DNA from: a virus
Virus record (IMG/VR): IMGVR_UViG_3300006810_000486
Coordinates: 1-21,301 of that record
DNA length: 21,301 nt
Reading direction: 5' to 3' (one strand)
The notes beneath the pieces are model-generated. The model had not been told where the DNA came from and made no database searches. It was given only the letters and a program-made list of their open reading frames with translations. Numbering within the stretch: the first letter of the stretch is position 1; each line of letters begins with the position of its first letter. Shown here in pieces: positions 3,712-18,231 of the stretch. The position numbers and the translations under genes are program-made.

Positions 3712-6700
3712 ATGGTATTTTCATATGCTGGTTCTGGGTCTATATCTCCCGTAGTTGGGTTTGACTTCGGGAATATTTCCTACAGCTATACACCATCTTC
3801 AATTCTCCAATTCATTTATGTTGACCTGGGAACGCTTGGAGCGCCCACGGCAACAATCGATCATGGAAGTGTCACCGAACCTATTACTGGTCAGGAAGAC
3901 TGGGGTGACATGCGTTATGATCAACAGACAAGATTCCCATTCGGCGTCGTTAGACTAGCGAGCAGCACGACGTTTGTTGTTAAGAAGGTATTCGTTGGTA
4001 GCGGTCAACTCTTTGAGTTGGGCGAAGCATTCACAAGACTACAGGCCCCATGGATTGTTGAAGGCACTATCTCCCTCCGAGGAGAGGCGAACGCAGCGTT
4101 CTTGTATCGTTACGATGCTTCTGGCGTCCAACACGTATACGGGGACGCTGCGCCGTCTTACAGCACTCAATATGAGGGTTCTGGATCCCTATTCAGCGGT
4201 AGCTTTGCTGGTGAGGCTGTCACCAAGGTATTCCCAGAAGATTTTGATTATACGAGCATAGAAGGTTCACTTACCACGTTAACTGCTGCGGATCTGTCCA
4301 GCGGTTACAATGCGGTATATGATGGATCCATATACTATTCCAGCAGTGGATCTGGCACAACTCCTACTAATGGATTTGCTGTAGGTCCACACGTCAGATT
4401 TGGCACAGTCACCGACCCTGGATCATCTAGCAGCACAAACAGAAAAGTTGAATATACTCTAGACCTCACTGATGTTGAGGAGATCACCTTTAGACTCGTT
4501 ATGGGTAATGGGTCTAATGGTGGAGAGACTCCAGATAATGGCGAAGACCTATGGATGAGATACCTAGATACAGGTCTCTCCCTTAATGATGCATCTAGAA
4601 AATTACTAGACCACGCAGAAACTACTTACACAACTCCTGGCGATAAGACAGTTACTGTCCCAGTAGAGGCAAGAAGACCTAATCAGACCATTAGAATTTA
4701 CCAGTTAACATGGTCTGGTACATATGAATTTGATCACTACGGATTTATATCACTATCATATGGCAGCGAAGTTGTTGTCGGTGGAGATGGAGATACTCGC
4801 AAGACCTTATTTGAGATTGGTAGTGAAGCTCTAGTCCTGTCATCACTACGCCACATTGGTAGTGGTACTCTATTCAATATTGGTAGCACCCAACCACTAC
4901 GCACGTTTGCGTATGATGGTTCTGGAACTCTATTTGGATTTGGTAACGAGACCAGAAGTCTCACTTATTCATATCCTGGAACCGTCTTCTTCACATATGA
5001 AGATTATGGTCAGGTTACTGCGACCACAACACAACCTAACGAAGACTTTGGTTCTCTATTCAGAGATCCTGGTGATGATGTATACGAGATCTTTGATCGT
5101 GGCGAGATTCTCGTTAATTACACCAAGTCTCCGTTCGGATTATTCAAGCTTCGCAGCGAAACAATTGGTGCGAAACTTACACATATTACTGGTACTGGCG
5201 ACGTATTTGTCATTGGCGATGCTCGAACCAAGGGTCCACAAAATCATTACGGAGAAGGTGTATTCTTCATCGAAGGTGCATCCAAGACAACCTTCTCTCT
5301 ACAAGAGTTTGGTTCTGGATTCATCTCTACTCTATCTGGTGCAGCGCAAACATTCTCTGCAAGTCCAGAAGAAAAAGACAAGCTACTCAACTTTAGAGGT
5401 GTTGCGAGTCAGAGCAGATCTGCAATTCCTGCTATCGAAGGTCTTGATGTCAAGGTTCAGGGCGCTGGTCTCACCAGATTTATTCCAAGATACAATGGAA
5501 GAGTGCATCTGGACATCGACGGTGGTCTCGTTACAGAGAAAGTCACCCTCTCCCATCTTGGTACAGGTGTTCTGTTCGACTTTATCGGAGCAGAAGAGAG
5601 AAGAGTTTACTCTTACAACACCTCTTCGATTGACTTTATTACTCATCCTGATTACGGATCTGTTGCTAATGCAGCAGCAATCTTCGAGGATTATGGTGAC
5701 CTAGATCTTCGCTACACTGGTGAAACTGGATGGATGTCTACTCCAGACATTCGCATTGATTACCAGGGTATCCTTGATAATTACACTAACTATCCATTCG
5801 GACTCCTACCACTCAAGGGCGCAGGCGAGACATCAAAAGTTCGTGCTTTCTCTGGTTCTGGTACACTCACTGTTGGTGGCGATGTATTCATCTTCGTTCC
5901 TCCTGTATGGGACGGTCAAGGTGTTATCAGCATCAAAGGCAGTGCAGAAGAAGCATTTGTATCCAGTGAACAGTTCCAAACTCTATTCGAGTTCAAAGGA
6001 ACACTGGAGAATTTCAAGATCGGAAGAGGTTGGCAAGGAACTGGAAGAATCTCCACACTGTCTGGTGCTGCAGAAGCGTTCACTGGAAATCCAACAGAAA
6101 GAGAAGCACTGTTCTCATTCCGTGGTGTTGCACAATCCAGATTCATTCCGAGATACAACGGTCGCGTTCTTCTCGATATCGATGGTGGCCTTGTTGCAGA
6201 GAAAGTTGCCCTCGCACATCAAACGACTGGAAGTCTATTCAGCTTCGTCGGTGCAGATCAAGCGAGAGTCTACTCTTATAACAGCACATCAATTGACTTC
6301 TTCGTTCCAGTTGATCTGGGATCTGTTGCTGCTATACCATCGACGAATGCAGAACCAGTTGCTGTATACACCGAAACAGATTTTGGTACATTAGATCTTG
6401 TATATACTGGAGAGCAGGGATGGTTCTCTACTCCAGACGACAGACAAGATTGGCAGTATATTCTTGACCATGATACTACGTATCCATTTGGTCTCTTCGA
6501 GAGATTTAGTGGTACTGCAAGGATTATTATCAATCTTTCCCACTTCACTGGTGCGGAAGATGGTGGAGATCGTCTATTCAAGTTTCGTGGCGAAGTCGAA
6601 CTTTCATTCCCCAACGTACACAGTGGCACAGGTGGACTTACCGTCTTTGGTGCTGCTACATCAGAGAAGATTGGTGTTGCCGAGAGCTTCAATGTTCTGT

Positions 6701-9639
6701 TCGAGGCATCTGGTTCTGCCGATGTTCTCACGACATTTGCAGAACAGAGAGATGTCGAAATCGAACTCGATGGCAATGCAGGTGTTTCGTTTACTGGAAA
6801 CACAGTTCAGGATGCAACCATCTTCATTACTGGTGCTTCTTCCGAGATTAGATCGAGAGGATACCAAGGAACTGGATTCATTTCCACACTGTCTGGTGCT
6901 GCAGAATCCTTTACTGGCAATCCAGTCGAGAGACAGCTTCTCTTCGATATCACTGGTCAAAGTGTATTACGAGCAACCAAAGCACACGAGGGATCGGGAA
7001 CTCTATTCGGTCTTTCAGGTGCAGCAGAATCTACAACTGTTGATGAAGTATTCGCTACGTTATTCAATATTAGTGGCGCATCTACAGAAGTCAGGGCAAG
7101 AGGATACGAGGGAACTGGAAGAATCTCTACGCTGTCGGGTGTTGCAGAATCCTTCACTGCATCTCCAGACGATCTATTCTCACTCTTCGACTTTACTGGA
7201 GGAATTACTTCCCTCAAGTCTACTGTCAGAGAAACTGCACAAGGTGCTCTCTTCGATATTACTGGAGAGATTCCTGCTCCTCTACTCACATTTACAGAGC
7301 AACCAGAAGTACAGGCAAGAATCTTTGGTGCTGGTTCAGAAGCTTACGTACCAAACTGGAGTGGTCGTGGTCGTATCTCGACGCTATCTGGTGCAGCAGA
7401 ATCCATCACCATCAATGCAAGAGAAAGAGAACTTCTATTCTCTATCACTGGATCGGCCGAAGAAGCATTCTCGTTCGGAAATTACGATGCAGATTCTGCA
7501 GCGAGAATCTTTGGTTCTATTCCAAAACCACCAACTCTCGTATTCGCAGAGTCTGGATTCGGAACCTTCACTGCATCTGGAGAAGGTGAATACATCAACG
7601 TCGATGTATATGGTGGATTCGGTACAATCTTCGCCAAGGGTATTGGTGGAGAATCTGTTACCAGAAGAATCCCAGCTTTCCAGGCAGATCTTGCTCTATC
7701 TGGATTTGCTGGAAAGGCCGTCACTTTCAATCCACCAGACATTACAACACATCTCCGTATTACTGGAGAAGGTGTTGTACCAATCAGAATATTCGCGGAA
7801 GTATTCACTGTCAGACTTGCTACCGATGGTACAGCAAGAGAGCGTTTTGTTTCCAACCATATTGGCGACGGCGCTATTGCTTCTCGCGGTATCGGTGGAG
7901 AGGCAATCTCCAGAAAACTACCTGCCTTCCAGGCAGACATGTTTGTTTCTGGATTTGCTGGTCAGAGCATTACTGTCAGAGAGCAATTCTTCGGATCTCT
8001 ATTCACATTCAGTGGATCTTCTGCTCCAGAACTCCTCGCATTTGCAGAAGAACCTGAAGTACGTGTTGAAGTTAGTGGTGAGTCTAAAGTCAGATTCTCC
8101 TTGCTCCACATTGGTGAAGGTAGAATCTCTACTCTATCAGGTGCAGCAGAATCTGCTACATTCAATCCAAAAGAAAAAGAACTTCTATTCTCCTTTGGTG
8201 GTGGTTTCAGCGACATCAAGATTGTTAAGGCAGAGACCAAACAAATTGAGATCTCTGTCGATGTCGATACAGATTACAGATTTATTCCCAACTGGATCGT
8301 CGAAGGTACGATTTCTATCAGTGGTATTGCCCATACCACCAGATCTATTGTACACACAGGAGAAGGATTTATCAGCGCACTATCTGGTGCGGCAGAATCC
8401 TTTACTTACAATCCAACAGAAGATACTGCACTATTCAGCTTCTTTGGAACTGCAGCAATCAGATCTGCTGTATCGGAAGTCAGGACAATCCACACTTCCA
8501 TTTTCGCAGAAGATGTCAAGGTATTTATTATCAAATCTTTCACTGGATCTGGTGTTATCCCAGTATCTGGACAGAAAGAAGAGAGAACAGCGAGAGCATA
8601 CGAAGGCACTGGTGTTATCAGCACTTTGTCTGGTTCTGCCGAATCCTTTACCGTCAACCCAGAAGATCTGTTCAGTCTCTTCAACGTTCTTGGTGTTGCG
8701 GATACAAGACCAATCAAGGTATTCACCAAGATTGGTTCTGGTGCTTTGTTCACAAGCTTCACTGCTGGCGAAGCGAGAACAATCTCTGTTCCTGTCAACG
8801 TTCCTTCTCAAGAATCCAAGGGACTCTTCAAGCTGGAGGGTTCATCTCCAGAGTCGTTTACTATTCCATACGAAGGATCTGGATCTCTATTCTCCTTCGA
8901 GGGACTGGAAGAAAGAAGAACCTTTGCACACGAAACCGAAGGAACAGTCACAGTTTCTGGTATTGCTTCTACACCAAGAACCAGAGACTACGAAGGATCT
9001 GGATCTCTGTTCTCGTTTATCGAAGCAGAATCTGCTGTCAGATTTGTTCCTTCTACCCGCACAGTTCTCTTCGATATTACTGGCGAGTCTGTATTCAAAA
9101 CAACTCAAGCACACGAAGGAACGGGAAGTCTCTTCACAACCTTCACTGCTGGAGAATCCAGAACATTCAAGCTTCCAGAACATCTGGTTCCAAACCTTAT
9201 CTTCAAAGGTGCGGCAACGATCAAGAATACTTACCAGTATCAGGGTCAGAACAATCTGGAGATTACAGGTTCTGCACAAGAATCGTTTACTCCTACAGTA
9301 TACGAGGGAGATGTTCGTCTCAAGACATCTGGAGAATCTGTACAGAAATTCGTTACAGCAGAGACGAGTCAGGGTGGAACAATCAAGGTTCGTGGCGAAT
9401 CTTCGGTACTCCTCACCAACGCATTCGACACTTATACCCTTTTCGATATCAATGGTATTGCGAAGGTCAATGTATCTTCTGTCTTTGCTGGATCTGGAAC
9501 AGTATTTACTTTCGTCAGTTCCGAGGAAGTACAACCAGACAAAGAGTATCAAGGATCTGGAACAATTACTCTACGCGGTGAATCCGTAGATAAGAAGGTC
9601 AATGTTGCTCCAGAACGCACTTACGGATGGATTATTTAA
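3712..9639 (+). CDS. Giant repeat-rich adhesin-like structural protein, 1975 aa
   Basis: The protein is almost entirely short β-repeats built on 'G-[ST]-G-x-L-F-x-[FIS]-x-G-x-[AS]-E'. Eight blocks contain the strong motif I-S-[TA]-L-S-G-x-A-[EQ], at residues about 538, 780, 1057, 1138, 1222, 1472, 1554 and 1636. Their spacing is near 82, or about three times that. Within a block the unit is about 21 residues, which suits a β-solenoid or a string of small β-hairpins. Four diverged copies of a 'D-Y/L-G-x-V ... PFG-L' module occur in the first 930 residues. A distinct insert lies at about residues 181-352. No signal peptide, catalytic motif or membrane segment is visible. An in-frame TAG directly precedes ATG 3712 and the next in-frame ATG is about 65 codons later, so this start is favoured despite the lack of a Shine-Dalgarno sequence. 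It is probably a long fibre or baseplate-attached adhesin; the role is inferred. Confidence 0.85.
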   Translation: MVFSYAGSGSISPVVGFDFGNISYSYTPSSILQFIYVDLGTLGAPTATIDHGSVTEPITGQEDWGDMRYDQQTRFPFGVVRLASSTTFVVKKVFVGSGQLFELGEAFTRLQAPWIVEGTISLRGEANAAFLYRYDASGVQHVYGDAAPSYSTQYEGSGSLFSGSFAGEAVTKVFPEDFDYTSIEGSLTTLTAADLSSGYNAVYDGSIYYSSSGSGTTPTNGFAVGPHVRFGTVTDPGSSSSTNRKVEYTLDLTDVEEITFRLVMGNGSNGGETPDNGEDLWMRYLDTGLSLNDASRKLLDHAETTYTTPGDKTVTVPVEARRPNQTIRIYQLTWSGTYEFDHYGFISLSYGSEVVVGGDGDTRKTLFEIGSEALVLSSLRHIGSGTLFNIGSTQPLRTFAYDGSGTLFGFGNETRSLTYSYPGTVFFTYEDYGQVTATTTQPNEDFGSLFRDPGDDVYEIFDRGEILVNYTKSPFGLFKLRSETIGAKLTHITGTGDVFVIGDARTKGPQNHYGEGVFFIEGASKTTFSLQEFGSGFISTLSGAAQTFSASPEEKDKLLNFRGVASQSRSAIPAIEGLDVKVQGAGLTRFIPRYNGRVHLDIDGGLVTEKVTLSHLGTGVLFDFIGAEERRVYSYNTSSIDFITHPDYGSVANAAAIFEDYGDLDLRYTGETGWMSTPDIRIDYQGILDNYTNYPFGLLPLKGAGETSKVRAFSGSGTLTVGGDVFIFVPPVWDGQGVISIKGSAEEAFVSSEQFQTLFEFKGTLENFKIGRGWQGTGRISTLSGAAEAFTGNPTEREALFSFRGVAQSRFIPRYNGRVLLDIDGGLVAEKVALAHQTTGSLFSFVGADQARVYSYNSTSIDFFVPVDLGSVAAIPSTNAEPVAVYTETDFGTLDLVYTGEQGWFSTPDDRQDWQYILDHDTTYPFGLFERFSGTARIIINLSHFTGAEDGGDRLFKFRGEVELSFPNVHSGTGGLTVFGAATSEKIGVAESFNVLFEASGSADVLTTFAEQRDVEIELDGNAGVSFTGNTVQDATIFITGASSEIRSRGYQGTGFISTLSGAAESFTGNPVERQLLFDITGQSVLRATKAHEGSGTLFGLSGAAESTTVDEVFATLFNISGASTEVRARGYEGTGRISTLSGVAESFTASPDDLFSLFDFTGGITSLKSTVRETAQGALFDITGEIPAPLLTFTEQPEVQARIFGAGSEAYVPNWSGRGRISTLSGAAESITINARERELLFSITGSAEEAFSFGNYDADSAARIFGSIPKPPTLVFAESGFGTFTASGEGEYINVDVYGGFGTIFAKGIGGESVTRRIPAFQADLALSGFAGKAVTFNPPDITTHLRITGEGVVPIRIFAEVFTVRLATDGTARERFVSNHIGDGAIASRGIGGEAISRKLPAFQADMFVSGFAGQSITVREQFFGSLFTFSGSSAPELLAFAEEPEVRVEVSGESKVRFSLLHIGEGRISTLSGAAESATFNPKEKELLFSFGGGFSDIKIVKAETKQIEISVDVDTDYRFIPNWIVEGTISISGIAHTTRSIVHTGEGFISALSGAAESFTYNPTEDTALFSFFGTAAIRSAVSEVRTIHTSIFAEDVKVFIIKSFTGSGVIPVSGQKEERTARAYEGTGVISTLSGSAESFTVNPEDLFSLFNVLGVADTRPIKVFTKIGSGALFTSFTAGEARTISVPVNVPSQESKGLFKLEGSSPESFTIPYEGSGSLFSFEGLEERRTFAHETEGTVTVSGIASTPRTRDYEGSGSLFSFIEAESAVRFVPSTRTVLFDITGESVFKTTQAHEGTGSLFTTFTAGESRTFKLPEHLVPNLIFKGAATIKNTYQYQGQNNLEITGSAQESFTPTVYEGDVRLKTSGESVQKFVTAETSQGGTIKVRGESSVLLTNAFDTYTLFDINGIAKVNVSSVFAGSGTVFTFVSSEEVQPDKEYQGSGTITLRGESVDKKVNVAPERTYGWII
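3772..6510 (+). repeat. Four diverged copies of a DYG/PFGL module within the giant gene
   Basis: The copies lie at about 3772-3957, 4958-5156, 5602-5820 and 6265-6510. Each begins with a Tyr/Ser-rich strand (SYSYTPSS, TYSYPGTV, VYSYNTSSIDF, VYSYNSTSIDF). Each passes through one or two D-[YLW]-G-x-[LVMD] turns and ends with [FYS]-PFG-[VL]. Copies 3 and 4 belong to a longer duplication that also includes the preceding RFIPRYNGRV..LDIDGGLV segment, at about 5477 and 6143. This points to a recent internal duplication there and older ones upstream. Confidence 0.75.
4252..4768 (+). other. Non-repeat β-domain inserted in the giant repeat protein
   Basis: Residues about 181-352 of the giant protein break the 21-residue rhythm. 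They show VEYTLDLTDVEEITFRLVMG, then NGGETPDNGEDLWMRY, a TVTVPVEARRPNQTIRIYQ strand pair and a FDHYGFISLSYG end. The pattern suggests a compact β-sandwich, somewhat like reelin-type or carbohydrate-binding modules. The GN-x-x-NGGE-x-P-x-x-GE-x-L stretch would be its signature. The domain borders are approximate and its function is unknown. Confidence 0.5.
5323..8634 (+). repeat. Eight-copy ISTLSGAAES repeat blocks in the giant gene
   Basis: Coding copies of the I-S-[TA]-L-S-G motif begin at 5323, 6049, 6880, 7123, 7375, 8125, 8371 and 8617. Successive distances in residues are 242, 277, 81, 84, 250, 82 and 82, i.e. a period near 82 or about three times it. The motif is usually preceded by an aromatic or His residue, E/Q-G-[TE]-G, and followed by S-F-T-x-N-P-x-E and then L-F-x-[FI]-x-G. 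DNA conservation is also high (ACTCTATCTGGTGCAGC-like), so homologous recombination between copies is plausible. Confidence 0.85.
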
Positions 9640-9678: not shown

Positions 9679-10137
9679 ATGACCACCCAGGTACAATTTA
9701 GACGTGGTACTACTGCTGAACATGCCCACTTTGTTGGCGCAGAAGGTGAATTAACTATTGATACTGATAAGAACATGGCCGTCATCCACGATGGCGCGAC
9801 CAATGGTGGTTTTGATGTGTTCAGAGCAAGATGGGAAAGAGTTAATTCTGACACTCTTCTAGGAACAAACTTACGTTATCTGGTAGACACTACAAACAAT
9901 GAAATCACACTGACTCTTCCTTACTATAACAATGGCCTGGTTCCTAAACCAGGAGATGTCATTGAGTTTGTTGATTCTGCATTTACGTGGCATATAAATA
10001 ATGTTACGATAACAGATCCTACTGGGAGACAGTTTCAAAATGAAGAAAGTGTGATTGATTCTCCTTTGGTTTTTGATGTAAAAGGTGCAAAAGTTCAACT
10101 GATCTGGGAAGGAGTTTACTGGAGAGTAGTCGTATGA
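9679..10137 (+). CDS. Fibre-related protein with Mtd-like N-terminal domain, 152 aa
   Basis: Residues 1-50 carry the widespread phage-fibre start pattern: VQFRRGTTAEHAHFVGAEGE, then LTIDTDKNMAVIHDGATNGG. This matches the N-terminal β-prism family of the major tropism determinant and many short tail fibres (Mtd_N type), which trimerises and attaches to the tail. Residues about 72-152 form a second β-domain (ITLTLPYY, PKPGDVIEFVD, then VQLIWEGVYWRVVV). A related C-terminal module occurs in the 108-residue protein at 14254. No Shine-Dalgarno sequence is seen, and the leader from the late promoter is very short. The stop overlaps the next start as ATGA, implying translational coupling. The fibre or baseplate attachment role is inferred from the domain family. 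Confidence 0.8.
   Translation: MTTQVQFRRGTTAEHAHFVGAEGELTIDTDKNMAVIHDGATNGGFDVFRARWERVNSDTLLGTNLRYLVDTTNNEITLTLPYYNNGLVPKPGDVIEFVDSAFTWHINNVTITDPTGRQFQNEESVIDSPLVFDVKGAKVQLIWEGVYWRVVV
9993..10000 (+). promoter_or_regulatory. Intragenic late-promoter-like octamer TATAAATA
   Basis: A perfect match lies inside the Mtd-like gene, 134 bases before the next start. T4-type late promoters can be intragenic, so it might boost the two downstream fibre genes. Chance occurrence in AT-rich coding DNA is a real alternative. Confidence 0.3.
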
Positions 10138-10538: not shown

Positions 10539-13500
10539 ATGGCTGATTTCAGATTAGGTAGACTAAAATTTAATTGGACTGGCGATTGGACCGCCGCCGC
10601 AGATTACGTCATTGACGATATCGTCAAGTTTGGCGCAAATACTTATGTTGCCAAGGCAAACCACACTGCGTCTTCTAACGAGACTATGTGGTATTCCCAA
10701 GACGCACAGTATTGGGATTTACACACAGAAAGTATCGAGAACAAAGGCGAATGGTCTGACGGAACTTTTTACAAACTTAACGACATTGTTAAGTATGGAA
10801 ATAGCGTATATCGCGTAACCGTAGCACACACAGCTTCACCAAACTTTGTAGATGATCAAGCAAAGTATGAACTGTTTGTTGCTGGTCTAGTATTTGAAGA
10901 TACTTACGATTCTGCGACTACATATCAACCAGGAGATATCGTATCTTTCGGTGGTTATACTTATGTAGCGACTACTATTCACTCTGGATCTGCTCCTAAT
11001 TTACTAACTAATTGGGATATTGTTACTACTGGATTTAAAGTACAAGGAACTTGGGACGTTGCCACAAATTACGTTCCTGGCGATGTTGTACTGCTTGGTG
11101 GTAATTCTTACGTTGCAAAGACTACTAACGTTGGTGCAAACCCAGGATCTAGTGCTTCTGATTGGGACTTCATTGTTGGTGGATTTACTTGGCAGGGTAT
11201 TTGGGACGTTGCAACTACATACTATGCAGGTGATGCAGTTGTACGTAATAGTAACTCATACATTGCTGTTTCTACCTCTATTGGCGAAGAACCAGAAACT
11301 GATGCAACTGGTACATATTGGAACACCCTGGCAGAAGGTGCCCAGGCTAATGTTCTAACAACAACTGGTGATGTTCTCTATCGTTCTGGTGCAGGTGCTG
11401 CGCGTCTACCCATTGGAACGAGTGGTCAGGTTCTTGCTGTTTCTCCATCAGGAGTTCCCCAGTGGGAAAATAACAATGTAACTGATCCTGTTTACTATGT
11501 TACCGAAGAAGGTAGTGACACAAACACTGGTGAAAATATCTCAAGATCATTTGCTTCTTTAAATTATGCAGTAACTCAAGTCACTGGTCCTGCTACTATC
11601 TACGTCAAAGCAGGCACTTACTTCGAGACTCTACCTATTGTTGTTCCTGATTATGTATCTATTGTTGGTGACAACATGAGAACATCTACTATCAAACCTA
11701 ATTCAGGTCAGAATAGTAGAGTTTTAGAACTAACTCTATCAGGAACTGTTGCTGATGAGTACAAGGTTGATGGTCTGGTAGTCAGTAACGGTGCTGGAAC
11801 CAAGACTGCTTATGCTCTTCATAGTAAAGTTGTTGGTGGTAACGATGTTATCCAAATTCTACCAATCACTGGTGGAGATTGGACAACTGCTGATACTTAT
11901 GAGTCTGGAGCAACGGACACTCCAATTTCTACTGTAGATAATGTTCTTAACGAACATGCAACTTTGTTCTACATGTCCAACAAATCCATGCTGAAGGACC
12001 TTGTTATGGACGGAATGGAAGGTTTTGTTCCTTCAGTATCAGATCCAAAAGATCTAAACACCGCAACAATCAAGGGTGTATTCCTCCGCTTGTGGCCTAA
12101 CTCTCCAACAACCAAGTCACCTTATATCTCACAGTGTTCTGCATTCTCGCAGACTGGTGTCGGTGCTATTGTTGATGGTCATGTTCACAAGAAGTGGGAA
12201 GGAACTGCAACTCCATCGAACAAGTCGATGCTGTTTGACTCCTTCACCCAGATTCATGAAAGCAATGGTGTTGGTTTCTGGTTGACAAACAACGGAAACT
12301 CCGAGATTGTATCTTGCTTCACTTACTACGCGCACATTTCTTACTGTGCTTCTAATGGTGGTAACATTAGATCTCTGGCAGGTAACTCCTCTTGGGGCAA
12401 CTATGGTATTGTATCTTCTGGATTCAACGCAGACGAAGTTACCACGGACGGTAGAATTGACGGTGAAGAACTGAACTATCAACCAGAGACACTTTCTGAC
12501 GTATTCATTGTTGGTGAGAGAATCGAAGGATTCACTTCTGGTGCTATTGCAGAAGTTCTTTCCCAGCAAGTCGGTGTCGCAAAGATCCTAATCAGACCGC
12601 TAAAAGGAACCTTCATCTCCAACGAAACTATTACTGGAGATGATTCTGGAAGCACTGCAGTTCTCGACACAGCAGCAACTTATCAGGATGGTCAGAAAGG
12701 ATTCACTCTTATTGTTAGAGACCTCTCCGCAGCACCCAAGCCTGGCGGTTCAATTGAATTCATTACTGGTCCTGGTGGCGAGGGTCCAGACATTTTCACT
12801 TATGTTATCTCCAACTCTTCTTATAAAGTTCCTGACGGAAAGGGCGATCTTACTGTTACCAGAGGTTCTCTAGGAACCACTGCTGTTGTTCATGATGGTC
12901 TATCTGATATTGTTAGATATACCGTACAAGGTCAAACAACTCTAACCGCTGCTCCAAATGCTTCTGATACATCTTTGTCAGTTACCAGTATTAATGGTAT
13001 GGTAAACGGAGGATTCTTGATCATCGATAACGAGATGGTCCAAATTACAGGATTCCCCAATCCAAATACAGTCGATGTAACTAGAGGAGTACAAACAACA
13101 TCAGCAGCTCCACATAATGCAAGTGCGGTTGTAACTATCATCACTGCTTACAATCCATCACAAACAGAGAACATTGGTGACCTCGACAATTCACAAACTT
13201 CTATTCGTGTATTCGCTGAAGACAATATCTCTAGCGGTGACTTCATCAGAATTGATAACGAGTTTATGCTTGTTTCTTCATCTGTAGAAGATCCTAACGG
13301 TCAGGTAACATTAGTTCTTGCTGAAGAGAAGCCCAATCCTTCTTACAATGGACAGCAATTTAAGATTAGATATCTGTATTCACAGGTAAGACTAACTGGT
13401 CACGACTTCTTGAATATTGGTACAGGAACCAAGACACAGACCAACTTCCCAGGTCTACCCATTCAATCACCTGCTCCAGGTAATGAGGTAACCGAGAACT

Positions 13501-13811
13501 TCCCAGGTCGTGTTTACTATGTTTCCACTGACCAAGATGGTAACTTCTCGGTTGGTAAGTATTTCCGAGTTAACCAGTCAACTGGTAGCACAACTCTGAA
13601 CGCTTCGTCCTTCGACCTGTCTGGTCTGACTTCACTACAACTGGGTTCGATTGGTGGTCAAATTGGTGAATCTATTAACGAATTCTCTTCTGACCCCACT
13701 CTTTCATCATCCAGTAACCAAAAGGTTCCTACGGAAAACGCAGTTAAGACTTACGTCGATACTGAACTAACTAATCTCAAGGGTTATATCTTCTGGGCAG
13801 GCGGTATCTAA
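10539..13811 (+). CDS. Tail fibre with CBM-like repeats and pectate-lyase-like segment, 1090 aa
   Basis: The start is supported by AAGGAAAG at 10522-10529. Five tandem W-x(6)-Y-x-x-[GN]-D-x-V-x-x-[GN]-x-x-Y modules fill residues 13-263 and resemble chitin/cellulose-binding CBM5/12 units. A fibre linker follows (TTTGDVLYRSGAGAARLPIG). Residues about 317-640 begin YYVTEEGSDTNTGENISRSF and TIYVKAGTYFETLPIVVPD, typical of a pectin-lyase-like right-handed β-helix. Further β-modules repeat 'IDNEMVQI' and 'IDNEFMLV' at about 830-930. The C-terminus has YYVSTDQDGNFSVGKYFRVN and the fibre-tail pattern VPTENAVKTYVD. Such folds in phage fibres bind, and sometimes cleave, surface polysaccharide. No catalytic residues were identified, so binding is the safer call. 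A strong terminator follows 10 bases downstream. Confidence 0.85.
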   Translation: MADFRLGRLKFNWTGDWTAAADYVIDDIVKFGANTYVAKANHTASSNETMWYSQDAQYWDLHTESIENKGEWSDGTFYKLNDIVKYGNSVYRVTVAHTASPNFVDDQAKYELFVAGLVFEDTYDSATTYQPGDIVSFGGYTYVATTIHSGSAPNLLTNWDIVTTGFKVQGTWDVATNYVPGDVVLLGGNSYVAKTTNVGANPGSSASDWDFIVGGFTWQGIWDVATTYYAGDAVVRNSNSYIAVSTSIGEEPETDATGTYWNTLAEGAQANVLTTTGDVLYRSGAGAARLPIGTSGQVLAVSPSGVPQWENNNVTDPVYYVTEEGSDTNTGENISRSFASLNYAVTQVTGPATIYVKAGTYFETLPIVVPDYVSIVGDNMRTSTIKPNSGQNSRVLELTLSGTVADEYKVDGLVVSNGAGTKTAYALHSKVVGGNDVIQILPITGGDWTTADTYESGATDTPISTVDNVLNEHATLFYMSNKSMLKDLVMDGMEGFVPSVSDPKDLNTATIKGVFLRLWPNSPTTKSPYISQCSAFSQTGVGAIVDGHVHKKWEGTATPSNKSMLFDSFTQIHESNGVGFWLTNNGNSEIVSCFTYYAHISYCASNGGNIRSLAGNSSWGNYGIVSSGFNADEVTTDGRIDGEELNYQPETLSDVFIVGERIEGFTSGAIAEVLSQQVGVAKILIRPLKGTFISNETITGDDSGSTAVLDTAATYQDGQKGFTLIVRDLSAAPKPGGSIEFITGPGGEGPDIFTYVISNSSYKVPDGKGDLTVTRGSLGTTAVVHDGLSDIVRYTVQGQTTLTAAPNASDTSLSVTSINGMVNGGFLIIDNEMVQITGFPNPNTVDVTRGVQTTSAAPHNASAVVTIITAYNPSQTENIGDLDNSQTSIRVFAEDNISSGDFIRIDNEFMLVSSSVEDPNGQVTLVLAEEKPNPSYNGQQFKIRYLYSQVRLTGHDFLNIGTGTKTQTNFPGLPIQSPAPGNEVTENFPGRVYYVSTDQDGNFSVGKYFRVNQSTGSTTLNASSFDLSGLTSLQLGSIGGQIGESINEFSSDPTLSSSSNQKVPTENAVKTYVDTELTNLKGYIFWAGGI
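10575..11327 (+). repeat. Five tandem CBM5/12-like modules in the tail fibre
   Basis: The copies span residues about 13-60, 69-111, 118-161, 168-211 and 218-263 of the fibre. Copies 3-5 share 'W/Y-D-x-A-T-x-Y-x-x-G-D-x-V', then a 'Y-[VI]-A' strand. Copies 1 and 2 are more diverged (TGDWTAAADYVIDDIVKFG, GEWSDGTFYKLNDIVKYG). The period is about 45-52 residues, and the conserved Trp and Tyr are the usual sugar-stacking type. Confidence 0.8.
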
Positions 13812-13849: not shown

Positions 13850-13857
13850 TATAAATA
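13850..13857 (+). promoter_or_regulatory. Late promoter, TATAAATA, abutting the terminator
   Basis: A perfect octamer lies directly after the terminator T-tract. An overlapping second match (AATAAATA, 13854-13861) follows. The next gene starts 43 bases downstream with AAGGAG at 13887-13892. Confidence 0.8.
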
Positions 13858-13900: not shown

Positions 13901-14221
13901 ATGGCTTCTGGAGTCCTAGGGCAACAAGCTCTGAATGCTACTACTAACACTACGGTATATACTACGCCTGCAGACACAGTAGCATACGCAAATATCAATG
14001 TTGTTAACATCAATGCAACCCCCATTGTCGTAAGACTTGCTATCGCAGCAGGTACTACACCTCTCGCAGCAGAGTATATTGAATATGAAGCAGAGATTGC
14101 TGGATATGGTGTTTTGGAAAGAACTGGTATTGTTTTAAATTCTGGCAAAAGAATCGTAGCATATAGCAATATTTCGAGTGTAAGCGTTGCAGTATATGGC
14201 GTCGAAGAATCTACTGTTTGA
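13901..14221 (+). CDS. Small β-rich late structural protein, 106 aa
   Basis: AAGGAG at 13887-13892 sits eight bases before ATG. The protein is Ala/Thr/Val-rich, with alternating strand-like stretches (TVYTTPADTVAYANINVVNI, PIVVRLAIAAGTTPL, EYIEYEAEIAGYGVLERTGI, SVSVAVYGVEE) and no cysteine or membrane helix. The pattern 'TxVYTxPAxTxAxxNxxVxNxxxxPxxVRLA' with a late 'LERTG' turn fits a small jelly-roll or Ig-like virion protein, as in other cyanophage late regions. It is first in a late transcript that continues into the cysteine-rich genes. Its precise role in the virion is unknown. Confidence 0.8.
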   Translation: MASGVLGQQALNATTNTTVYTTPADTVAYANINVVNINATPIVVRLAIAAGTTPLAAEYIEYEAEIAGYGVLERTGIVLNSGKRIVAYSNISSVSVAVYGVEESTV

Positions 14222-14253: not shown

Positions 14254-14580
14254 ATGGGACGTTTTATTAGTTCACCAACAGAATCAAGAGCAACCGTAGC
14301 AGTAAACTCGGCACACCAAGCAGCATCTGGAGAAATTCTTCTTCTAGATACTTCGGGTGGAACTGAATTTACTGTAACTCTTCCGTTGAATCCAAGACCT
14401 GGCGACAGACTTAACTTTATTGACGCTGCTGGAACCGCTGGCACCACTAAAGTTACTATCGCAAGAAACGGTCAAAAGATCGCTAACATCGAAGACGATT
14501 TGGATATTGACATTAAAAATACATCACTCGAATTGTACTACACAGGAACCAGTTACGGTTGGTCGATCCTTTCAAACTGA
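14254..14580 (+). CDS. Small β-rich late protein, 108 aa, module shared with the Mtd-like protein
   Basis: AAAGGAG at 14236-14242 precedes the ATG. Residues about 36-108 (EFTVTLPLNPRPGDRLNFID, VTIARNGQKI, LELYYTGTSYGWSIL) align by eye with the C-terminal domain of the 152-residue protein at 9679. The shared frame is 'T-L-T-L-P ... P-x-P-G-D-x-[IL]-x-F-[VI]-D ... V-T-I ... L-x-[YW]-x-G-x-x-[YW]'. This suggests an interchangeable small β-module used in more than one virion part. The N-terminal 35 residues (MGRFISSPTESRATVAVNSA) differ from that protein. No catalytic motif is visible. It is probably a structural or fibre accessory protein. Confidence 0.78.
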   Translation: MGRFISSPTESRATVAVNSAHQAASGEILLLDTSGGTEFTVTLPLNPRPGDRLNFIDAAGTAGTTKVTIARNGQKIANIEDDLDIDIKNTSLELYYTGTSYGWSILSN

Positions 14581-14607: not shown

Positions 14608-15600
14608 ATGTCAAGTTTAAGAGATTTACTAGATTACGCGAGTATTGAGGACCTTCCTCCCATTACCGCGTTCGGTCAACCAGGAGTCATGTTTACCTTT
14701 AGAGGTGTCGCATGTGCTCAAGGAAACGGTTGCGACACTTATGAAAGTCAGAGACTATGCTGGTGTGTACCCCCACTAGACGCAACTAAAATGCGTGTAG
14801 AAATTTGGGGTGGTGGTGGAATGGGCGGGGCTCCTCGCTGTACTTCTACTGGTGTTCCTGGATATTCTGGAGAATACAACAGTAGAATCCTTTGTGCAGA
14901 TGAGTTAAACATTGCCAATTTTAACAATCAGTGCTATGTAATGTGTGTTGGCATGGCAAACTGCTGTGCAGCTTGTCATGGTGGGTGTATGGGTTGTAAG
15001 ACCTATGTTCAAGGTCCTGGACTATCTGGATTCTGTGCCGAAGGTGGATATGGCGGTAAGTACGAAGGTGTTTGCTCCGTATTTAACAACTCTCGTTATG
15101 GTTGTAACACCGTAATCGGTAACAACTGCTGTAGCAACTGTGGATGTACACCAGCATATTGCTGCTGGCACGAAACAGAAAATGCTCCTTTCAACAAAGC
15201 AGATAGAGACGCAAAAGAAGCCCTTGGCATTTGCTATAATGGTATTACAGCTTCTTATGTTGTCTCCGACTGCTGCTGCCGTAAGATTGGTGGTAAGAAG
15301 ACTTACACCCCTTTACCTGGCGGTTTGATTGGTAGATTTGGTGGATACATGGTTAATGGTTTCATGTGTGATGACTGCTATCTAGATCCTAATCACTACA
15401 GATGTGTTGATTGTGATAGAGCAAATAGTAGTGGTGGTATTTTCCCTGGTTTAGGATCTGCCACATGTGGATGGGGTGGTCCTCCTGGAATGGGAGGCGG
15501 TCAAGGATACCTCGGATGTTGTTATCACTGCTCCTGCGGTGGCACTGGCGCTACTGGTGCAGTTAGATTCACTCTATACCCATCTACTACAGGAGGTTGA
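14608..15600 (+). CDS. Cysteine/glycine-rich late protein, paralogue A, 330 aa
   Basis: GGAGG at 14594-14598 sets the start. The protein has 35 cysteines in 330 residues, often as CC, CCC or CxxC, in a glycine-rich frame. Shared landmarks with the next two genes are an LRDLL start, EIWGGGG near residue 67, C-Y-x-M-C-V-G, and GCKTYVQGPGLSGFCAEGGYGG at about 130-150 (here with the K-Y-E spacing after it). A GG[PM]-type turn series and a final GATGAVRFTLYP strand also match. The general plan resembles glycine-rich phage fibre-tip domains (Gly_rich_2-like or gp38-like), but the cysteine load is unusual. The cysteines could bind metal or form disulphides after release. No signal peptide is present. 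An adhesin or tail-tip role is inferred from location and the glycine-rich frame. Confidence 0.82.
   Translation: MSSLRDLLDYASIEDLPPITAFGQPGVMFTFRGVACAQGNGCDTYESQRLCWCVPPLDATKMRVEIWGGGGMGGAPRCTSTGVPGYSGEYNSRILCADELNIANFNNQCYVMCVGMANCCAACHGGCMGCKTYVQGPGLSGFCAEGGYGGKYEGVCSVFNNSRYGCNTVIGNNCCSNCGCTPAYCCWHETENAPFNKADRDAKEALGICYNGITASYVVSDCCCRKIGGKKTYTPLPGGLIGRFGGYMVNGFMCDDCYLDPNHYRCVDCDRANSSGGIFPGLGSATCGWGGPPGMGGGQGYLGCCYHCSCGGTGATGAVRFTLYPSTTGG
15591..15596 (+). promoter_or_regulatory. Strong ribosome-binding site AGGAGG for paralogue B
   Basis: A full AGGAGG lies inside the last codons of paralogue A, seven bases before ATG 15604. Only three bases separate the two genes, so translation is probably coupled and the start is well determined. 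Confidence 0.85.
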
Positions 15601-15603
15601 TAA

Positions 15604-16512
15604 ATGGCTGGCATTAGGAATCTATTGGGAAAAGAATTTAGGTCTTCGGTTGGTGCTCTTGGCACAACAGTAGAACCAATTCATGACGGCAAAGTCTTTA
15701 TTTTTGCAGCAAACCACAGATCATGTTGCTGCAACTGTGCTACAAACAATTGTATCTGTAACTGGTGTGTTCCCTGCGGCGTTACAAAAGTAACGTTCGA
15801 GATCTGGGGTGGTGGTGGTGCAGGCGCTGGTGCTTGCTGCTGCATGAATGGCATTCCTGGCACCACTGGTGCTTATTCACGTAAGACTCTGACTTATCCA
15901 GAAGTCGAAGGTGGTTACTGCTATCAACTGTGTGTTGGAACTGCAACAAGTAACTCAAATAGCTTCCGTGGTGTTAGAGGTTGCCATACTTACATCACTG
16001 GTCCTGGACTGTCTAACTTCTGTGCAGAAGGAGGATATGGAGGTTGTACTTGCTGCGGCATCTGGTCAAACTCTGCCTGCTACAGTAAGGATAGAATTGA
16101 TTTCTGCTCTGATGGTAATTGCCTTGGATATGGTCCCCCAGCATATGGTGGAGATTTGAACATCGCAGGTAGAGCAGGATTCATCAGAAACTACTGCTCG
16201 GAGCAATGCGCTGTTAAAGCAATGCTACCATATCCACCAAGAATTGTTGATCATAGTGGTGGTTGGTCTACTACACACTATTGCACCCGTGTTACTTGTG
16301 GAGAGCAAAACCATTGCTTTATCAGTTTGCCATACTCTGGTTGGCCAAACTGTTACTCTTCTGGTATTCCTGGTTTCGGCAACGCATCCGCTATTACTTG
16401 TGGATCTTCGTGTCAATGTGGAACCCCAGGATCTGGCGGTATGATCCGCATCACGTATTGCTCTTGCTGGATGGGTGTCAATGCAGACTGTTCACTACAT
16501 ATGTGTAATTAA
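15604..16512 (+). CDS. Cysteine/glycine-rich late protein, paralogue B, 302 aa
   Basis: It has 34 cysteines in 302 residues, including a dense N-terminal cluster of eight within residues 41-61 (CCCNCATNNCICNWCVPCG). It shares the IRNLLG start, W-C-V-P-C-G leading to FEIWGGGG near residue 67, CYQLCVG, GCHTYITGPGLSNFCAEGGY, and a C-terminal GSGGMIRITY strand with its neighbours. Unlike paralogue A, it ends in a short extra tail (CSCWMGVNADCSLHMCN). The three-base gap and shared architecture point to tandem duplication. Function is unknown; a glycine-rich adhesin or virion surface protein is the most likely class. Confidence 0.82.
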   Translation: MAGIRNLLGKEFRSSVGALGTTVEPIHDGKVFIFAANHRSCCCNCATNNCICNWCVPCGVTKVTFEIWGGGGAGAGACCCMNGIPGTTGAYSRKTLTYPEVEGGYCYQLCVGTATSNSNSFRGVRGCHTYITGPGLSNFCAEGGYGGCTCCGIWSNSACYSKDRIDFCSDGNCLGYGPPAYGGDLNIAGRAGFIRNYCSEQCAVKAMLPYPPRIVDHSGGWSTTHYCTRVTCGEQNHCFISLPYSGWPNCYSSGIPGFGNASAITCGSSCQCGTPGSGGMIRITYCSCWMGVNADCSLHMCN

Positions 16513-16526
16513 TAGGATAAACAACA

Positions 16527-17429
16527 ATGGCTACTAACTTACGAGACTTATTAGGTGTAGTGACCTCCGATGCTGCGGCTTCAGGTTACGATCCAGATAC
16601 ACTTCTACCCACATATCCTTTAGAGGATTATAACGTTCAGTATTTTACTCCTGGTGCATATATGTCACAGGGTTATGATACGCCTATAAGTGATATCGAT
16701 AGTTATCACTATACGTATTATCCCGACTGGACAGTTCCTACTGGCGCTACCCAGATTCTCTTCGAGCTCTGGGGTGGTGGTGGAGGAGGAGCAGTATCTT
16801 GCTGCTGTTCTCATGGTCCTGGTGGTGGTGCTGGAGCATATGCATATAAGATTCTCAAGGGATCTGAAGTAGTCGCTGGATGTCAATATCAACTGTGTGT
16901 TGCATCAGCAACTTGTAGAACTGCATCTAAATCTGGACGTAGAGGATGCAAGACTTATATCACTGGTTTTGGTCTTACTAATTTTTGTGCTGATGGTGGT
17001 TTTGGTGGTTGCAACTACTGCCAACTTCAAGGTTGCACTTGGTTGACACCAAGAAGAAATGAATCCGAATGTCAGTATGGTTGCTGTGCTATTTTCTATG
17101 GTGCTGATGGTGGTTCGGTTGGTCTACCTGGAGCATACTATGCAATCTGTTATGGTAACAGATGCCACAACAAAATCTTCTTCCCATACCCTGGTGGTCT
17201 AGCAAGTTCCCAAGGTGGATATGTATCTGATAGACATCATTGTGGTCACTGCAATTGCCACTATTGCGAGTGGTGCCGTGCCAAATCTCTAGTTGGTTTC
17301 GGACAAGGTAACTTCTGTCATGCTACTTCTATTCCTGGTTTCGGTGGTGTCACAGCATCTACTTGCGAAAACGGTCCAGTATGTGGATCAGGTGGTCATG
17401 GTGGCATGATCAGAATCAGCTACAAGTGA
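16527..17429 (+). CDS. Cysteine/glycine-rich late protein, paralogue C, 300 aa
   Basis: A weak AGGA at 16514-16517 precedes the ATG. It has 24 cysteines, none in the first 90 residues. That N-terminal part is instead Tyr/Asp/Pro-rich (MATNLRDLLGVV, then DTPISDIDSYHYTYYPDWTV). From residue about 78 it rejoins the family: FELWGGGGGG, CCC, GGGAGAY, CQYQLCV, GCKTYITGFGLTNFCADGGF, FPYPGGLASSQGGY, CxxCxCxxCxxC at about 239-249, then IPGFGG and GMIRISY at the C-terminus. Loss or gain of the N-terminal cysteine cluster marks it as the most diverged copy at that end. It is the last gene of the block, with a separate late promoter 39 bases after its stop. Its role is inferred to be structural or adhesive. 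Confidence 0.82.
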   Translation: MATNLRDLLGVVTSDAAASGYDPDTLLPTYPLEDYNVQYFTPGAYMSQGYDTPISDIDSYHYTYYPDWTVPTGATQILFELWGGGGGGAVSCCCSHGPGGGAGAYAYKILKGSEVVAGCQYQLCVASATCRTASKSGRRGCKTYITGFGLTNFCADGGFGGCNYCQLQGCTWLTPRRNESECQYGCCAIFYGADGGSVGLPGAYYAICYGNRCHNKIFFPYPGGLASSQGGYVSDRHHCGHCNCHYCEWCRAKSLVGFGQGNFCHATSIPGFGGVTASTCENGPVCGSGGHGGMIRISYK

Positions 17430-17467: not shown

Positions 17468-17475
17468 TATAAATA
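17468..17475 (+). promoter_or_regulatory. Late promoter, TATAAATA
   Basis: A perfect octamer lies in the 73-base gap after paralogue C, 28 bases before the next ATG, with AAGGAAAG at 17487-17494 as the ribosome-binding site. No hairpin terminator is visible between paralogue C and this promoter. Confidence 0.75.
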
Positions 17476-17502: not shown

Positions 17503-18231
17503 ATGGCACAAATTTCTAAAGCATATACTTATAAGTTGCCCGACTCTTACTATGGGACAACTGCTGTAAATGGCAATACCGCCACCGCAATTTATAACGG
17601 ACCTGCAAAGGGATTTGTATTTGTAGGTTCAGATGATGGTGTTTTACATCCTGACGAGGGATTCCATCCATGGAATGGAAAGCAGGAAAATAGAGATGCA
17701 ATGGATATTAGAGCAGGTCTCTCGCGCAGAGCTATTGTACTTGATTGTACTACTAGTAATGACGATACTATCATCGCCGCTATCTGCACGGGTCAAGATA
17801 CATCTTCCGATGATTGGGGAACTGTTTCTTACACGCTAGATGGTGAGACAGAACCTTATCACACCGATCCAGATCCTCTTCCTTTAAATGATGTATATGA
17901 TGTACATAATGATAAGATCAAATATGATTTTGAAACTGAAACATGGTTGATTGATGAAATTCCTTTTGCAAAAGGTAAGTCCATGGAAGAACACATTGAA
18001 ATGAGAGACGCTCTGATTGTCGAGGCTCAAGGATATATTACTGATCCTGATAATGAAGTAACTGAAGAGCAAACAACTGCTATCAATGCATACATCACCG
18101 AACTTCAAAATCTATACACTAGATTTGAAGGAGTTCATCAGATGAAGATTCCTTTCCCATCATGGCCCATTGACGATCCTGGTCCTGCAGATGAACAGGC
18201 AGTAGCGCGCGCTGATGTAGGTGCTGGTTGA
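17503..18231 (+). CDS. Hypothetical late protein, 242 aa, with helical C-terminal part
   Basis: The start follows AAGGAAAG and a perfect late promoter. The N-terminal half is β-rich and Tyr/Gly-rich (KAYTYKLPDSYYGTTAVNGN, GFVFVGSDDG, CTTSNDDTIIAAICTG). The C-terminal third (MEEHIEMRDALIVEAQGYIT, TEEQTTAINAYITELQNLY, IPFPSWPIDDPGP) has the layout of tail-fibre-assembly or tail-chaperone-like proteins. In those, a helical R-D-x-L-[IL]-x-x-[AT]-D-type stretch precedes a W-P end. It is a single-gene unit closed by a strong terminator. It could be a fibre assembly factor or a minor virion protein; the resemblance is weak and unconfirmed. Confidence 0.72.
   Translation: MAQISKAYTYKLPDSYYGTTAVNGNTATAIYNGPAKGFVFVGSDDGVLHPDEGFHPWNGKQENRDAMDIRAGLSRRAIVLDCTTSNDDTIIAAICTGQDTSSDDWGTVSYTLDGETEPYHTDPDPLPLNDVYDVHNDKIKYDFETETWLIDEIPFAKGKSMEEHIEMRDALIVEAQGYITDPDNEVTEEQTTAINAYITELQNLYTRFEGVHQMKIPFPSWPIDDPGPADEQAVARADVGAG

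Follow-up and report, generated by a model that had tools for sequence, protein, structure and literature searches.

A fixed triplet of cysteine-laden, glycine-rich proteins in T4-like cyanophages, most likely receptor-binding proteins of the fibre tip

The locus and its late-operon setting

The window, meaning the whole stretch of 21,301 nt that was analysed, is a fragment of a T4-like cyanophage, and its nearest relative was identified to be Synechococcus phage S-CAM3 (Kyanoviridae, Charybdisvirus), with 89% identity across 86% of the window. Three adjacent glycine-rich genes, hereafter copies 1 to 3, lie within it in the following setting:

10539..13811, + strand: tail fibre protein, 1090 aa (PHROG 9851 tail fiber protein; CBM_5_12 and Pect-lyase matches)
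13850..13857, + strand: T4-type late promoter TATAAATA, a consensus match only, 43 bases ahead of the 106-aa gene, the first of the transcription unit
13901..14221, + strand: 106-aa protein with a tail-fibre match (phrog_11338, E 6.5e-8), kept in the cluster in 77 loci
14254..14580, + strand: 108-aa protein with matches to portions of tail fibre proteins (phrog_8859, phrog_972), kept in 78 loci
14608..15600, + strand: copy 1, glycine-rich probable tip protein, 330 aa, 35 cysteines (PHROG 4205, E 8e-67)
15604..16512, + strand: copy 2, glycine-rich probable tip protein, 302 aa, 34 cysteines (PHROG 4205, E 7e-95)
16527..17429, + strand: copy 3, glycine-rich probable tip protein, 300 aa, 24 cysteines (PHROG 4205, E 9e-91)
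17468..17475, + strand: another T4-type late promoter TATAAATA, located 27 bases ahead of the putative chaperone gene
17503..18231, + strand: putative tip-assembly chaperone, 242 aa (PHROG 9740)

The sequence TATAAATA is the consensus of the T4 late promoter, which we take to be established for T4-like phages, and it occurs five times in the window as compared to 0.73 expected occurrences, a number reached by none of 100 shuffles. The sites at 2187, 9643, 9993, 13850 and 17468 all lie on the + strand and all except that at 9993 stand just before open reading frames. The 1090-aa tail fibre gene directly precedes the cluster and was found upstream in 77 loci, and its product is likely the carrier or a neighbour of the tips. 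On the other side the triplet is followed by the PHROG 9740 gene (73 loci), a conserved 379-aa gene and a carbamoyltransferase gene (67-73 loci). The assignment of the genes to a phage late region, as made in an earlier note on this DNA, is hence supported, as both synteny and late promoters speak for a tail-fibre setting. Further upstream, positions 3712-9639 encode a repetitive, entirely cysteine-free protein of 1975 aa, whose number of repeat units seems to have increased or decreased, since the gene at the same place in S-CAM3 spans 7677 bp (record L003, 3293-10969) as compared to 5928 bp in the window.

The product of 17503-18231 is putatively a Tfa-like tip chaperone, as suggested by its family and position. 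Two of 30 PHROG 9740 members matched Pfam Phage_tail_APC (PF16778), the best being that of S-SSM7 (E 1.1e-9), which also matches several tail-fibre-assembly PHROGs. In the profile search the window protein itself gave neither a PF16778 nor any other Pfam match, and comparison of the family profile with the PDB returned nothing significant.

Copies 1 to 3 contain 16-18% glycine, and the cysteine counts of 35, 34 and 24 in three adjacent proteins of about 300-330 residues, as given in the earlier note, are exact and far above the 0-2% cysteine of the remaining predicted window genes. The common sequence plan described there was likewise recovered, as all copies possess the LRxLL start, WGGGG, C-x-x-x-CV, GCxTYxxGxGL..FCA.GG and a closing G-x-[VI]R strand; copies 2 and 3 share 35% and 32% identity with copy 1, from which BLASTP retrieved them with E values of 4e-15 and 5e-12, respectively. 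Identity to the S-CAM3 orthologues is 85-88% and dN/dS is 0.13-0.16 (0.136 for copy 1), which identifies the copies as real coding genes under purifying selection. By cysteine fraction these orthologues rank first to third among the 153 long open reading frames of the S-CAM3 genome (11.6, 10.9 and 8.0% as compared to a pooled 0.87%; binomial tails 6e-28, 8e-28 and 6e-16), and together they make up 1.6% of the residues yet hold 16% of all cysteines. The cysteine excess of the triplet, about ten times background, is thus beyond chance.

Family, distribution and predicted fold

The profile of PHROG 4205, a phage family annotated with unknown function, covers copies 1-3 over their full length. With Pfam Gly_rich_2 (PF21722, curated cut-off 24.3 bits) copy 3 scored 32.0 bits and copy 2 23.1 bits, just under the cut-off, while copy 1 gave no match; 25 of 69 aligned relatives matched at E <= 1e-3, and the search of the family profile against PDB sequences returned nothing at E <= 1. 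Among 50,697 phage records the searches recovered as carriers only the cyanophages S-CAM1, S-CAM3, S-SSM7/S-SSM6a, Sf-FS3, P-SSM2/P-SSM5 and two single-cell marine virus genomes, and IMG/VR contributed 78 loci with the cluster. The 245 copies collected, a set chosen partly by cysteine content, are cysteine-rich throughout and contain a median of 10.2% cysteine (range 6.5-12.3%). Three copies are the rule (72 loci), with two found in P-SSM2 and AG-345-F15 and four in locus L083, and the remaining low copy counts result from contig ends. The single cellular match, a contig of a metagenome-assembled genome labelled Euryarchaeota (PAZU01000047.1, L086), is likely a mis-binned phage contig because it carries the same cyanophage gene block, i.e., two genes of about 107 aa, three cysteine-rich or PHROG 4205-like copies and a carbamoyltransferase-like gene.

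In the carriers examined the copies are annotated as hypothetical. The annotated copies 2 and 3 of S-CAM1 (L004, 17258-18094 and 18241-19020) miss the N-terminal part, and with in-frame ATGs located upstream at 17162 and 18121 their starts are probably mis-annotated; the hypothetical frame S-SSM7_117 (L006, 8389-8718), which overlaps the third cysteine-rich copy in a different frame, is probably spurious. As a side observation, three genes of S-CAM3 are annotated as glutaredoxin (L088, 17527-17718; L091, 24895-25143 and 31655-31918). Within the incompletely covered literature, no description was found that joins cyanophages with a cysteine-rich protein or a cysteine-rich tail fiber, and no paper on phage Sf-FS3 was found in the literature searched.

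AlphaFold2 models of the monomers were obtained for copy 2 (pLDDT 77.8, pTM 0.79) and copy 3 (pLDDT 80.9, pTM 0.82). For both, the top solved match was the fibre of cyanophage Pam3 (7ypx_A), with Z 17.1, rmsd 3.1 and 194 residues for copy 2 and Z 16.9, rmsd 3.0 and 193 residues for copy 3, at 21-22% identity. Copies 2 and 3 are therefore predicted to consist of a TNF-like and a glycine-rich domain in a fold of the Pam3 gp24 type, preceded by a brief conserved stretch (LRxLL) with low pLDDT values. Next came the glycine-rich subunit of the Bxb1 tail tip (PDB 9D93; Z about 14), which has the same fold at 15-20% identity but belongs to a mycobacteriophage tail tip and not to a myovirus fibre, and the extracellular glycine-rich domains of ALK/LTK (Z 8-10), animal receptors with the same TNF-like plus glycine-rich architecture at about 16% identity, meaning analogy or very distant kinship; unrelated rows scored about 3-4. 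Named BFVD matches were mostly phage glycine-rich and tail-fibre proteins, including Syn9 gp38 as neighbour of copy 3. The earlier note had supposed a link to glycine-rich phage adhesins, to be checked by profile and structure comparison with Gly_rich_2 and gp38-like adhesins. The link gained support from the Gly_rich_2 profile, with copy 3 over the cut-off, and from the predicted adhesin fold of copies 2 and 3; S16 gp38 is not named in the Foldseek/VIA lists of PDB matches, where absence does not amount to exclusion.

Pam3 gp24 (PDB 7YPX, 7YFW) is a virion tail fibre that comprises a TNF-like domain plus a glycine-rich domain assigned to host recognition, and it forms a trimeric fibre that is folded by the chaperone gp25 in a 3:3 complex (PMC9608196). 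Likeness to copies 2 and 3 thus extends from the predicted fold (about 190 residues, Z about 17) to the setting, as Pam3 gp24 is also the fibre of a cyanophage myovirus with a chaperone and the window holds a candidate chaperone gene close downstream. However, Pam3 has one fibre gene instead of three, and gp24 possesses a long helical shaft where the window copies seem to have only their short N-terminal segment. Pam3 gp24 was reported to resemble S16 gp38 in its glycine-rich domain, S16 having a beta-helix middle domain in place of the TNF-like domain, and the report contains no mention of cysteine or disulphide (PMC9608196). The gp38 adhesins of the T4 superfamily (T2/S16 type) are, like the triplet, glycine-rich and act as adhesins at the fibre tip. 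In the T4-like cyanophage Syn9, gp36, gp38 and gp39 (gp38 and gp39 annotated as tail fiber assembly) are likewise glycine-rich and stand in tandem behind a tail-fibre gene, but belong to other PHROGs (863, 1589) and are followed by other downstream genes. As these proteins in the matching slot contain 0.8-2.5% cysteine, the cysteine load probably represents an alteration of a known adhesin fold that is particular to this lineage.

Cysteine conservation and history of the copies

The window and S-CAM3 have 92 of 96 cysteine positions in common, and in pairs of 60-95% identity cysteine was the most conserved of ten residue types compared (0.87-0.89, as compared to 0.76-0.84 for glycine). Over the whole depth, each position group contains 6-13 columns with more than 90% cysteine, 13-19 with 50-90% and 37-57 with 5-50%. 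The cysteines hence form a fixed core plus outer positions with slow turnover, so that the variation of the outer cysteines, which the earlier note set against a preserved glycine frame, is seen at deep distances only, and its notion of a swappable cysteine layer is not supported.

The constraint on the cysteines is of a structural kind, and together with the loops of the fold, which have little secondary structure, this makes disulphides formed after lysis the favoured reading. Against it stand the cysteine counts, which show no excess of even numbers (46-52% of the sequences by weight), the single-cysteine differences found between many close relatives (frequent for copies 1 and 2), and the search for co-changing cysteine pairs on the trees as disulphide partners, in which no pair was significant after correction. 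Odd counts being as common as even ones, along with frequent single gains and losses, suit metal ions or free thiols as well as disulphides. The same tip adhesins could then bind zinc, iron or copper by their cysteines, either ordering the loops or in receptor contact, and the 1.5-2.2-fold enrichment of adjacent cysteines (CC, CCC) and the mild enrichment of CxxC in copy 3 (1.28, z 3.3) would be in line with this. CxxC spacing is the usual mark of metal knuckles. It reaches only 0.87 (copy 1) and 0.63 (copy 2) of the expected frequency, so the motif is not consistently enriched in the manner of zinc ribbons or metal knuckles, and the profile search yielded no metal-binding family match for the window proteins or the aligned relatives. 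Metal binding is thus considered unlikely, albeit worth keeping in view.

For the history of the copies a tree of 65 divergent members was used, of which 58 carried a position label. On this tree two changes account for the labels 1, 2 and 3, which is the minimum for three labels; the P-SSM2-type and S-SSM7 sets separate, with the S-SSM7 copies forming a clade of their own. Between-phage distances measured on copies 1-3 are correlated with the distances obtained for the fibre gene (rho 0.90-0.95) and for the PHROG 9740 gene (0.86-0.88). Both findings document a triplet of ancient origin and set order that has been passed on as a unit, which points to three distinct jobs and argues against recent tandem diversification. 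The copies are hence proposed to fill different places in a single apparatus, where none could stand in for another, instead of being alternative versions of one adhesin.

It is conceivable that the paralogues assemble as a 1:1:1 heterotrimer into one asymmetric tip with cysteines bridging subunits, an idea that draws on the exactly three ordered, ancient and co-inherited copies in 72 loci, on the trimeric state of Pam3 gp24 with the same fold (PMC9608196) and on the missing parity constraint within one chain. Two copies in P-SSM2 and its relative AG-345-F15, four in L083 and the separate S-SSM7 clade stand against it, and three separate homotrimers fit the data equally well, leaving the heterotrimer a slightly less likely candidate even than metal binding. 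Improbable to a greater degree is the extended version, in which such a heterotrimeric tip of three ordered paralogues is reduced in the host and becomes locked in seawater by cysteines within and between subunits, which would make it an oxidation-armed adhesin.

The copies and the PHROG 9740 gene are the fastest-diverging genes of the block (83-88% identity to S-CAM3 as compared to 91-97%), as is expected of receptor-binding proteins and their fitting partner. This fast protein divergence and the many low-frequency cysteine positions at deep range could also be taken as signs of recent tandem duplication with exchangeable cysteine decorations that serve host-range diversification, as had been supposed earlier. 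Recent tandem expansion or swapping is, however, rejected on the basis of the position-sorted tree and the correlated divergence, and given that none of the other residues compared is better conserved than cysteine at 60-95% identity and that dN/dS is 0.13-0.16, this explanation is very improbable; what was taken for diversifying copies is an old triplet of fixed order that has been inherited along with the fibre gene. Least probable of all are non-virion cysteine-rich proteins (metal storage, redox buffer or host takeover) on a borrowed glycine-rich fold, which the hypothetical annotation would permit but which are hard to reconcile with the late promoter, the neighbours of the tail-fibre type, the adhesin fold and a chaperone candidate linked to the genes.

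Proposed role at the fibre tip

Based on fold, family and neighbourhood, the three proteins are most likely receptor-binding proteins of the fibre tip. In its full form, to which we assign a probability of roughly two in three, the suggested model assumes that the copies are receptor-binding proteins at the fibre tips of T4-like cyanophages, which are made late, folded by a chaperone and furnished with disulphides after release. Homology, predicted fold, gene order, conservation and late-operon setting are directly supported, and from these we infer virion location, receptor binding, the chaperone role and the disulphides. In the literature searched, no virion proteomics of family carriers was found, and none of the phages with virion proteomics (S-SM1, S-PM2, Syn9, S-SCSM1, S-CREM2) is among the family matches.

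According to the model, the conserved N-terminal segment M-x-x-LRxLLG would serve for docking and would be followed by the TNF-like beta-sandwich and the glycine-rich bundle, whose far loops may touch the host surface, an arrangement corresponding to the Pam3 gp24 fold. Upon late synthesis, folding would be aided by the downstream Tfa-like chaperone, its part being suggested by family and position, and the proteins would then be added to the fibres. The cysteines would stay reduced as long as the proteins are inside the host and pair into disulphides once they reach oxygenated seawater, whereby long loops poor in other secondary structure would become cross-braced and the exposed tip hardened.

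What is new, and well supported, is the occurrence of glycine-rich tail-fibre tip proteins with unusual chemistry in a fixed triplet, an unusual and presumably reinforcing cysteine load that a whole group of ocean phages has retained together with the order of the three genes. For many marine T4-like cyanophages the receptor-binding proteins lack an assignment, and the present result names likely tip adhesins for one group of Kyanoviridae. PHROG 4205 gains a candidate function together with a probable chaperone, and thereby a concrete target for work on phage-host recognition. A tip with 8-12% cysteine that originates from a reducing cytoplasm raises the question of when and how its thiols are used, and whether oxidation at lysis hardens the particle.
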